A stretch of DNA of 64,000 nt from Terebella lapidaria (lineage: Eukaryota > Annelida > Polychaeta > Terebellida > Terebellidae), in NCBI GenBank assembly GCA_949152475.1, contig OX424563.1, positions 35,784,120 to 35,848,119 on the forward strand, read 5' to 3'. The notes under the pieces were generated by a model. It was not told the origin of the DNA, ran no database searches, and saw only the letters and a program-made list of their open reading frames with translations. Shown piece after piece: positions 160 through 30,400 of this stretch (position 1 is the stretch's first letter; every line of letters begins with the position of its first letter). Both the position numbers and the translations under genes were made by a program.

Positions 160-1812
160 CTTCACAAACAAGAAATGTGACACAGAAAATCTTACACAAA
201 GAAGTGATAAACCGCGATAAACAAAAACAAGTGGAAGCCCAGTTAGAAACATTGGACAACACAGATGCGATATCCCATCAAGATATGGTAGGAAACACTT
301 TTTAGCTTACCGGCCCTTTGGGCCGATAAGCTATTATCGTGATTTTTCGTCCGTCGTCCGTCCGGATCTGTGACTTTTTTTTGGGCATGATGAATTTCCC
401 CATAAATTTGTCAGAATATACCTTAGGCCAATATCTGAAAACGTTTTTTAAATTTTTTTGATTGAATCGTTTTTGCCGATTTGGCGGCCATTTTTGATGA
501 AAAATTGCCAATTTTGGACTTTGGTGGCCATTTTCTCAAAAACTGTCTGATCAGTTTTGAGATTTTTGTTTCAAAACATTCCTCTCATGTACCTCTATGA
601 CATGTATAGGTTTCGTTGCCCTTGACCCAATTTTTCCTTCATAATGGGAGATATGCAGAGTAATCTCATAGAACACTTCAAGATAGAGCCTAAGTATTGG
701 CCCATTCAAATGGGAAATCATATATTGCGGTTTGAGTGGTGACCTTGAATTTGACCTTCAATGACCTTGAAAGGTCAAAACGACCTTTTTTGTCGAAAAA
801 ATGTTGAATTTTGCCTTTGGTGGTCATTTTCTCGAAATCTATTCAGACAGTTTTCCTCAAAATCATGTATAAGATTATCCTTATGTACGTTTGTGATGTG
901 TATAAGTTTTGTTGCCTTTGAATCGACTATCTGTGAAAATTTGTCATTAACAAAAAAAATCTTTCAAGATGTAACTTGATTTCGTATTATAGTCCATACA
1001 GAAAATGTGTTTCTATCAACATTTACAAAGATGTTTTAACATATTGATTTTAACATCAGTGTAACAATTTATATGTATTCAGTATTCTATGCAATTCACA
1101 TGATTGCACATGATTGAAAGCTACAGCACCCTTTGTGCTATGTTTTGTTTTATTTCATAAATCTCATTCTTGATTGTGAGAATAATAATTGTAGTTTTTA
1201 AATAAGTTATAGTTTTTACAATGTATAATATGGATTGATACAAAACTGTCTTTTTCATTACTTAGCCAATTACCATGGCAAATCCTTATGAGCGACCTTA
1301 CCAAAAATGCATCATTTGTGAACACAACATAGAAGTCAACTATAAGGTAGATTCTTCATAAAGTCAACTATAATATAGATTTTTCATAAAGACAACTATA
1401 AGATAGATTCTTATAAATTTGGAAATGTTAAACCACATTGAAAACATCCTTGCTATCTTGTATGACTGACTGATTCAATCTATCAGAATATCCGACTGTT
1501 AAGTCAGTTCACGTCACCATACACCGGACGGATTTACGGCCGCCAGCACACAGGACTGTGTCAATACATGCAGAAACGGGTCGCACGACTCATCAAGCGT
1601 GCCAGATACTTCGGTAAGTCAACTACGTCTTCTCCATCAAGAATTCATTTGTATCATTCCCTTCGAACATTCTTTTAGAAACACATTCACATACAGGTAC
1701 AAGTTTATTTTCTCTCTGATTTCCAGGTCTCATGCCTTATATGTACAAGGACCAACGGTTTCTACACGACCCTAAACTTTTCGACCCATTTGCACCAAAA
1801 AAGAATAAATAG
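160..1812 (+). CDS. MRPS18C: Mitochondrial ribosomal protein S18C, last four exons (5' partial)
   Basis: Exons: 160-287, 1266-1346, 1487-1613, 1727-1812 (stop TAG). All have AG acceptors and GT donors, and phases agree (entry phase 2, then 0, 0, 1). The product is a small-subunit protein of the mitochondrial ribosome, bS18 family. The conserved core is clear: DMPITMANPYERPYQKC across the first two exons, then NIRLLSQFTSPYTGRIYGR and LMPYMYKD, matching the human pattern of NPYKEP, NVQLLSQFVSPFTGCIYGR and FMPVTYKD. The two CxxC-type cysteines of the family are only partly kept (CIIC, then GLCQ). The first exon, with the start and targeting peptide, is outside the window. The C-terminal tail DPFAPKKNK is lysine rich. 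The intron 160-1266 side carries a mobile-element fragment, and the second listed exon has its donor region tandemly triplicated. Confidence 0.93.
300..985 (+). mobile_element. HINE-A-related element fragment in MRPS18C intron
   Basis: It begins with the hairpin TAGCTTACCGGCCC/GGGCCGATAAGCT and a CCGTCCGTCC run, a sister form of the HINE-A 5' tip. The following bases, with GGCGGCCATTTTT and the paired TGACCTTGAA / AAAGGTCAAAA motifs, match the copies near 55.2 and 63.1 kb. The 3' hairpin end was not found; the right boundary is approximate. Confidence 0.6.
1333..1416 (+). repeat. 28-bp minisatellite spanning an MRPS18C splice donor (3 copies)
   Basis: The unit AAGTCAACTATAAG + GTAGATTCTTCAT starts at 1333, 1361 and 1389. 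The first copy is the real exon end (through 1346) plus its donor. Copies 2 and 3 lie in the intron and have lost the GT. Exon sequence was therefore duplicated together with the junction. Confidence 0.8.
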
Positions 1813-1840
1813 ATCTCTACAAGGATTTGTATGTGTGCAA

Positions 1841-27400: not shown

Positions 27401-30400
27401 ACATGACGTTTTTTGTACTTTTTGGGCATAAAAGACTGTTTCAGAGCCCCAAAAGCACATGGCATCAGCAGGTACCCCATTACATGTACATGTGAAGGAC
27501 AAACTTGATAACCCTAAGATTAACTGTCTAATGTCCGTTTTGCTCTACGTCGCACCATTTCCGAGGTATCGATGAAAATGGAAAATGCTGACTCGGTGAA
27601 AAAAATTCAGGTCAAGGTCAAAGTTCATCCCTAATACTCTTAAGACATGTTTGTCTAGGGCCACGAGTCCGATAATAACGTCCGTTTCGCTCTATGACGC
27701 ACCATTTCCGAGATATCGACGAAAGCGAAAAAAGCCGACTCAGCGAAAAAAATTAAGGTCAAGGTCAAAGGTAATCCATAATACCCTTATGACATGTTTG
27801 TTTAGGGCGACAAGTCCGAAAATAACGTCCGATTCGTTCTATGACGCACAGTTTCCGAGATAGCGACTCAGCGAAAAAATTTAAGGTCAAGGTCAAATGT
27901 CATCCCTAATACCCCAAGACATATTTTTCTCGGGCCACAAGTTAAAAATTAGCCCAAAGGCTAAGATAGGTTACCGGACAATTTTGGTTCGGCCATGACA
28001 GCATTGGCAGGTAACAGACCTTGAGATTTACCAATCAAGGTTCGCAGTGTAAACATATGACCTTGGGATTTACCAATCAAGGTCATCCATATGAGCTTCG
28101 ATGTTACCATTACATGTATGTGTGCGGCATTTGATATTCTATATGTTGGGTGGAATCATTCAGGCCGCTCAGGTCAATTTACACATTCCAAGTCAGACAT
28201 TTGGCACTCAAGGTCATCTGACGTCAAGTTCAAGGTCATCATTAGTTGTGCCATATATGTCTTCCTATATGTTCATAATGCAAACATGAGCTCTATCTGC
28301 AAGCATTTCATCTACAGAGGCAAATCTGGGCATTTTTTGACCCCAAAATGGCTGTTTTGACCTTTCAAGGTCATCCAAGGTCAAATTCAAGGTCACCACA
28401 CAAGTCGCCATATATGATTTCCCATTTGAAAGTGCCAATTTCTAAGCTCTATCTTCAAGCGGTCTATGAGTACAGTCCTGACAGCTCCCATTATGAAGGA
28501 AAAAAGTGCCGAAAGTCCAAGGTCATCTGACGTCAAGTTCAAGGTCATCATTAGTTGTGCCATATATGTCTTCCTATATGTTCATAATGCAAACATGAGC
28601 TCTATCTGCAAGCATTTCATCTACAGAGGCAAATCTGGGCATTTTTTGACCCCAAAATGGCTGTTTTGACCTTTCAAGGTCATCCAAGGTCAAATTCAAG
28701 GTCACCACACAAGTCGCCATATATGATTTCCCATTTGAAAGTGCCAATTTCTAAGCTCTATCTTCAAGCGGTCTATGAGTACAGTCCTGACAGCTCCCAT
28801 TATGAAGGAAAAAAGTGCCGAAAGTCCAAAAGTTTTTTTTTTGCCTAGAAAATGGCCCAAAATGGATAGTAATGCGGTTTGGGGCGAAAAAAAAAATTTT
28901 CGCCGACCCGCCAAAAAATCAAAATGGCCGCCACACGGAAACCGGCGAATTTAGGGCAACCAAACTTATACATATCACAGAGGTATATGAGGGGAATCTT
29001 TTGAAACCAAAAACTCAAAACTGATCAGACAGTTTTTAAGAAAATGGCCGTCAAATTCCAAAATTGAGCGTTTTTCGACAAAAACGGCCGCCATTTTGAA
29101 AAAAATGCGAAAATCAAAAAACAAAAAAATACCTCCTCAAAATATTTTTTGGTATTTTTGTGCAAAATTTCAGAAAGATTGGATCGTTAACTTTAAAGAT
29201 AAAAATGTTAACGCCGGACAGACGGACGGACGGACGGATGCAACGCCATGCCAATAGGTTATCGGACCAAAGGTCCGGTAACCTAAAAATAACATCCGTT
29301 TCACTCTAGGATGCTCCATTTTTTAGATATTGACAAAAACGAAAAAAAATGCCTCAGCAAAATAAATTTGAGGTCAAAGATGATTGAGGTCAAAGATGAT
29401 TTGAGGTCATTATTATCCCTGAGACATGTTTGTATGCGGTGACGATCCACCTTCGATGGACACGAAGGGCAGGATCAGGATGGCGTCTCGTCTATACAAG
29501 AGCAGTTCCTTCCGGATATACCCCCCCCCCCCCAACACATACCTTCTCATGTACAATGGACCTAATAGGCAGGATCAGGATGGCGTCTCGTCTATACAAG
29601 AGCAGTTCCTTCAGGATATACCCCTCACCCCCCGCCCCCAACACATACCTTTTCATGTACAATGGACACAATAGGCAGGATCAGGATGGCGTCTCGTCTA
29701 TACAAGAGCAGTTCCTTCAGGATTTACCCCCCCCCCCCCCAAACACATACCTTTTCATGTACAATGGACATGAAGGGCAGGATCAGGATGGCGTCTCGTC
29801 TATACAAGAGTAGCTCCTTCAGGATATACCCCCCCCCCCCCCAACACATACCTTTTCATGTACAATGGACACAATAGGCAGGATCAGGATGGCGTCTCGT
29901 CTATACAAGAGCAGTTCCTTCAGGATATACCCCCCCCCCCCCCAACACATACCTTCTCATGTACAATGGACACGAAGTGTTTCCCCCCCCCCCCCCAACA
30001 CATACCTTCTCATGTACAATGGACACGAAGGGCAGGATCAGGATGGCGTCTCGTCTATACATGAGCAGCTCCTTCAGGATGAGGATCTCCGCCACGAGTG
30101 TTTTACCACCACTAGTTGGCAGCGAATAGATCAGGTTCTTGCGTGCTTGTACCGAGGGCAGAGATAGACATTCATCCTGCCACTCTGCAGAACATGCACA
30201 ACATTCTGTAGCGACAACTTGACAACTTTGTGCGGAATCATGCAAGATATTCATGAACAACATGCCCTGATAAATCATGGTGAAGGGTCCGAGTAAACCT
30301 ATAACTGGAAGGAAAGTTTCAGCAGTCTACTTGGAGGGATTCTCCAGGTGTTACCATATGAATAGGTTCAAATGTGAACATAATATACTCTCACCTGAAA

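Follow-up and report, generated by a model that had tools for sequence, protein, structure and literature searches.

Minisatellite arrays that span exon–intron junctions in Terebella lapidaria and their probable concealment by splicing

Results

Two genes and four junction-spanning arrays

We analysed a stretch of 64,000 nucleotides from the annelid Terebella lapidaria (the window; positions 35784120-35848119 of contig C9, in an assembly of 761.6 Mb and 438 contigs), in which tandem repeats lie across exon–intron junctions of two genes. These genes encode the mitochondrial ribosomal protein bS18m (MRPS18C; plus strand) and a HELQ-like helicase (minus strand), and the window is located 5.7 Mb from the end of its contig. 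The end of the MRPS18C gene occupies the first 1.8 kb of the window. Its last three coding exons (1266-1346, 1487-1613 and 1727-1812) have a translation frame that is open until the stop codon, and the product matches Pfam Ribosomal_S18 (E 4.2e-20) and solved bS18m chains (E 9e-29). The helicase gene (5578-32081) was modelled with 19 coding exons, whose frame is free of stops and closes through all the junctions, including those that bear arrays. It has DEAD, Helicase_C, HTH_61 and POLQ_helical domain matches, and the stretch 9858-9450 by itself matches Hel308 and DNA polymerase theta.

Four arrays at junctions, with units of 28, 25, 67 and 101 bp, were confirmed by Tandem Repeats Finder (TRF); three of them span donors and one an acceptor. 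As read from the sequence, all four repeat exon-derived bases together with a splice site. A preliminary description of this DNA had reported four repeats starting at junctions. The repeats are real and each carries a splice site; they do not start at the junctions, as their units extend 13-74 bp into the exon.

The MRPS18C array (28 bp x 3.2; 1328-1417, plus strand) lies across the donor 1346|1347 (AAG|GTAGAT) and includes 19 exonic bases; the GT is kept in the first copy only and is lost in copies 2 and 3. The other three arrays are in the helicase gene, on the minus strand. The 25-bp array (x 20.3; 11022-11527) repeats CCCCC|GTATGT from the donor 11515|11514 with 13 exonic bases, and only one of its 40 donor-GT bases is changed. 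When the exon together with this array was used as a query, the sole match in the genome was its own place. The 67-bp array (x 2; 10281-10409) carries the acceptor GTACAG|GAGCTT, with the first exon base at 10296 and 16 exonic bases in the unit. As a third copy of this unit (10948-11016), ∼540 bp from the pair, adjoins the 25-bp array, a single HELQ intron has junction arrays at both of its ends.

The 101-bp array (x 5.1; 29456-30079, TRF row 29456-29973) has a unit of 74 exonic bases followed by GTATGTGTT and a run of Gs. It consists of the original copy, a 53-bp partial copy and five more copies, the last of which is without a donor. The true donor, 30006|30005, lies outside the TRF row, in the adjoining original copy and 53-bp repeat (29930-30030). 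In the original copy the 74 exonic bases encode a helicase stretch at the end of the exon. As this is part of a conserved protein (DEAD domain), the copies are likely to derive from the exon and not the exon from the array.

Expected number of junction hits in the window

A junction can be part of an array only when the founding unit included it; therefore, we used a founding-unit model, in which the expected number of hits is the number of junctions multiplied by (unit − 6) and divided by the ancestral non-coding length. The test covered the two-gene region with ∼42 junctions. Dispersed satellites were left out, and all nine of these have more copies elsewhere in the window or in the sample described below. 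From a hand-made list, 4 of the 12 local arrays span a junction against 1.15 expected (P = 0.018). An automatic list gave 4 against 1.43 expected among 12 rows (P = 0.033), with the 101-bp array counted as two rows. These arrays are the discovery set and so are not independent. The earlier judgement that the four hits are hard to explain by chance is thus too strong for the window alone, where chance is moderately unlikely and the hits are suggestive.

Junction arrays in an unselected sample of genes

The preliminary description had proposed to compare repeats at junctions with chance over the genome, and this was carried out on a sample. Sample 1 drew on exons of the myosin and TCP1 families; of 60 loci 51 were used, which merged into 32 segments with a total of 128,866 bp. 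Sample 2 consisted of 60 kinesin and SNF2 exons, taken by a selection rule fixed before reading (52 segments, 61,195 bp). To locate splice sites we combined the reading frame, a profile match and a generic weight matrix, which placed 158 sites in sample 1 and 116 in sample 2. At a TRF score of >=60 there were 37 arrays, of which 9 were classed as dispersed and 1 was the distal end of another array in the count, leaving 27.

We observed that a junction is spanned by 8 of these 27 non-dispersed arrays, against 1.34 expected (P = 1.3e-5; 190 kb, four gene families). Sample 1 by itself gave 7/23 against 1.10 expected (P = 3.2e-5) and sample 2 by itself 1/4 against 0.24 expected (P = 0.23). These P values assume that the arrays are independent. 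Four of the eight (63, 32, 26 and 43 bp) were found by eye, having been missed by the automatic test: the list lacked the junctions of the 63-, 32- and 26-bp arrays, and in the best TRF row of the 43-bp array the exonic part was no more than 2 bp. The expectation was raised by 6 junctions for the arrays recognised by eye. Of the 19 arrays counted as non-straddling, 3 were read by eye with their exons, so further straddling arrays may have been missed.

A myosin gene on contig C6 carries five of the junction arrays, four at donors (44, 63, 43 and 32 bp) and one at an acceptor (26 bp). The others are a 38-bp array at an acceptor of a TCP1-type gene on C16, a 20-bp duplication (x 2.2) at a donor of a kinesin gene on C7, and a 37-bp array in a chaperonin-like gene on C7 which, from the frame and the site score, plausibly spans a donor. 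The 44-bp array is present at both ends of a ∼6.9-kb myosin intron (C6:376324-383210) and, judged from these two ends, seems to fill it from the donor to ∼48 bp before the acceptor.

The sampled arrays crowd towards contig ends: 14 of the 27 lie within 1.5 Mb of an end, a zone holding 22% of the sampled bases (42 of 190 kb; P = 7e-4). Near the ends are also seven of the eight straddling arrays, five of them in one gene. This crowding, the P values of 0.018-0.033 in the window and a per-base coverage of junctions that is not above that of introns would all suit an explanation by chance, in which dense arrays in minisatellite hot spots sometimes fall on a junction. However, the expectation was built on the arrays and length of each segment itself, and yet P was 1.3e-5, or 0.034 without the C6 myosin gene. 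We regard chance in hot spots as improbable.

Tests without an excess at junctions

In a per-base test, local duplicates were found for 5 of 272 junction-centred 20-mers, a share not above that in the nearby intron (16/769 at 15-60 bp, 21/683 at 60-150 bp and 27/490 at 150-400 bp). None of the 802 exonic 20-mers at 15-60 bp from junctions was locally duplicated. We judge this test to be the wrong null for founding events, as intron bases grow when arrays grow.

We also searched for arrays of donor words. Triple CAGGTAAGT arrays were found at 4 loci in the whole genome against 5 for the reversed word (76 against 43 matches); three of the 5 control loci have one common unit. Among the matches listed, which cover C1 and C2, AGGTRAGT arrays occurred at 9 loci against 8 for the reversed-word control. 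The total of AGGTRAGT matches was 544 against 256 in the control, and 69 of the 100 matches listed belong to one C2 array. The locus test is a weak one, since both words are rare among the donors placed in the samples (AGGTRAGT 4/139, CAGGTAAGT 0/139). The 139 placed donors resemble AG|GTNNGT, a pattern weaker than the usual animal consensus. The count for AGGTTKGT (3551 against 729 matches) was rejected as a sign of enrichment: all 100 matches listed come from one satellite, a large 53-bp one containing this word at C1:623-632 kb, near a contig end.

The commonest 8-mer among the placed donors is AGGTCAGT (8/139). Its arrays yielded 2547 matches, compared with 322 for its reverse, and occupied >=10 loci on C1; on that contig the further words searched for reach 4 loci per two 8-mers. 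Outside arrays AGGTCAGT is 2.3 times commoner than its reverse (23 against 10), and AGGTCA is common in arrays (466 occurrences in 254 kb, 243 of them outside arrays). As this AGGTCA-rich background confounds the comparison, we did not accept the over-representation of AGGTCAGT as an enrichment test and consider it suggestive only. Thus, the sample revealed an excess of founding units at junctions, which is concentrated and is accompanied by no per-base or donor-word-locus excess.

Anatomy of the units and constraint on the extra copies

Taking the window and the sample together (n = 12), the exonic share of the unit ranges from 0.18 to 0.89 (mean 0.47), and a uniform position of the junction within the unit is not rejected (Kolmogorov–Smirnov test, P = 0.75). 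A run of Gs follows the donor in 2 of the 12 units, the HELQ 101-bp and the myosin 63-bp one. These data bear on a mutation process aimed at junctions, in which R-loops, a paused polymerase or exon-edge repair, linked to transcription or splicing, found the duplications. Such a process could account for the 8 of 27 arrays, for a single myosin gene with five of them, for the G-runs in two units and for the match counts of AGGTCAGT and AGGTRAGT arrays. Against it stand the uniform position of the junction, the 10 units without a G-run, donor-word loci that are not in excess, the dominance of a single C2 array among the AGGTRAGT matches listed, the AGGTCA background of AGGTCAGT and the per-base test. 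We consider this explanation unlikely, and the R-loop, reverse-transcription and donor-slippage mechanisms put forward earlier found no support in the position of the junction or in the G-runs.

The unit length is not divisible by 3 in 11 of the 12 arrays, as expected if the units are untranslated. Donor arrays outnumber acceptor arrays 9 to 3, and the direction fits a rule by which the first donor wins, although the difference is not significant (P = 0.15). The donor GTs of the copies show 3 changes of 290, where the rate at the remaining GTs of these units would give 6.4 (P = 0.25). Conservation of the donor GT was also considered as a sign of function and rejected: the three changes compare with 12.5 for random dinucleotides (P = 0.09), and the comparison with other GTs is the one given above.

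Selection for splice-site arrays, by which redundant donors would strengthen or tune splicing, could draw on the intact donor GT of the 44-, 37-, 63- and 101-bp arrays and on the near-complete conservation of the donors in the 25-bp array. It is at odds with donor GTs that are no better kept than the other GTs of the units and with copies 2 and 3 of MRPS18C, which have no GT. We hold it to be very improbable.

Other repeats and contigs

In a HELQ intron there is also a 45-bp array (x 44; 11884-13858, minus strand; TRF), in which the donor-like word AGGTAAGA is present 30 times. No recognised exon adjoins it, and as far as seen it is not junction-derived. Arrays with 134- and 147-bp units (293/324/402-bp multiples) recur in the window at 16294-18355, 20463-25448, 27529-28829, 33286-34637 and 50860-52872 and were treated as dispersed families; 147-bp relatives of them are found on C1, C2 and C7. 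Small contigs, including C150, C186, C234, C261, C414 and C351, have kinesin, myosin, TCP1 and SNF2 matches with several in-frame TAA or TAG codons, TGA being mostly absent. They appear to be contaminants of ciliate type that use a reassigned code.

Discussion

The arrays described here are probably splice-masked tandem duplications, that is, minisatellites whose founding duplication straddled an exon–intron junction by chance and is hidden by splicing. A duplication across a donor would turn exon–intron into exon–intron–exon′–intron′ and, with the first donor kept, the remainder would become intron. With the outermost original site in use (first donor or last acceptor), the extra copies, exon-derived bases included, would be intronic and the mRNA would be unchanged. 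Acceptor arrays would need the last copy to be used, which is riskier. Junction-straddling duplications would thus be tolerated, unlike purely exonic ones, and the tolerated arrays could grow by slippage or unequal exchange to tens of copies, lengthening the intron. The expansion would occur mostly in minisatellite-rich regions near contig ends.

Several observations carry this reading. The arrays have the anatomy it calls for, which fits the proposal in the preliminary description that duplications leaving one good site are better tolerated; they recur in other genes; the HELQ frame is intact; the sampled exons hold no duplicated windows; and the extra donors are under no special constraint. 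Since the extra donor GTs are kept no better than the remaining GTs of the units, the arrays appear to be neutral and concealed by splicing.

The following points weigh against it. Five of the eight straddling arrays of the sample are in one C6 myosin gene, without which the count is 3/20 against 0.76 expected (P = 0.034), and the sample counts are small and clustered. By hand count, eight arrays within ∼150 bp of junctions straddle and three do not; if the straddling share is taken as 0.25, a binomial test gives P = 0.001 by array and P = 0.07 by gene (4/7). The use of the outermost splice sites is deduced from the DNA sequence. An added exon-edge bias is also needed, because straddling arrays are six times the expectation, whereas tolerance alone predicts a proportion set by the unit length.

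Straddling founding units are in excess of those inside introns, which suggests that arrays arise more often from gene-proximal DNA at exon edges than from deep intron. We take this to be a property of minisatellite-prone gene regions and not of splicing itself; it may reflect transcription-linked damage or only the large share of other repeat DNA in deep intron here. A stronger claim, that junctions are preferred founding sites of minisatellites in this genome, where a gene-body duplication process acts several times more often than in intron DNA, and that junction duplication is a main route of intron lengthening, is possible but doubtful.

The remark in the preliminary description that no described class of such repeats is known is wrong. 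Human segmental-duplication paralogs have variable internal tandem repeats at exon–intron boundaries (De Grassi and Ciccarelli 2009, PMC2812944), with minisatellite units (∼30 bp mean) that alter intron structure. The arrays of the present study likewise contain exon bases and an exon–intron boundary. As presented there, those repeats belong to recent paralogs, and 27 intron modifications remaining after manual inspection were read as novel intron formation, whereas the arrays here are found in several gene families, reach up to tens of copies, are one-sided and lengthen introns of mostly undated age. Repeats at exon–intron boundaries are thus already known in human genes; here they are frequent, at least in some genes.

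A second related case concerns human introns that are as long as a whole number of units of the repeat around them, for which an 8.4-fold excess and dual-specific sites are reported (Duan 2024, PMC10809524). Introns of this UBC/VCX3A type are embedded in tandem repeats, and they resemble our arrays in having a splice site once per unit. In that type the intron spans a whole number of units and one AGGT acts both as donor and as acceptor, whereas the arrays here bear the donor or the acceptor of one intron end, with units mostly not multiples of 3. Among the introns read (HELQ, MRPS18C and the C6 intron with the 44-bp array), each array reaches a single intron end, unlike the UBC arrangement in which donor and acceptor both lie inside the array.

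Intron gain by tandem genomic duplication is well described (review, PMC3443670; potato, PMC4974935; Drosophila, PMC2891723). In common with our case, exon sequence with a splice-like site is duplicated and hidden by splicing. That route makes a new intron, whereas here an existing junction is multiplied. Although the route is known (PMC3443670, PMC4974935), it is highly improbable that the repeats created these introns: among the introns that were read, none has an array extending to both of its ends, and the 44-bp array stops short of its acceptor. Moreover, the C15 and C8 myosin paralogs have an intron 2 nt (by phase) from the array-bearing first donor of the C6 gene. Since the paralogs share nearly the same intron position, the first C6 intron is probably old. 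The 2-nt offset (C6:391437 against C15:27970030 and C8:5182672) perhaps reflects a junction that has slid.

In unit length, copy number and partly genic location our arrays resemble classical minisatellites, or variable number tandem repeats, as in a human set (PMC8096271), and they are head-to-tail copies of ∼10-100 bp units by TRF. In the main text of that paper the words 'splice' and 'exon-intron' do not occur, and no junction-defined class of minisatellites was found in the passages covered. One-sided, intron-lengthening junction arrays were not found named in the literature covered, which consisted of titles and abstract openings, with subscription journals mostly outside it.

Through splice-masked duplication, introns could lengthen in a simple way that leaves the protein as it is, and coding-derived sequence becomes visible inside introns. 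The arrays also provide natural rows of near-identical splice sites, up to dozens of them, in which the choice that the spliceosome makes between equal sites can be tested directly. Should the excess at junctions hold generally, it would indicate that a mutational process operates at the edges of exons.

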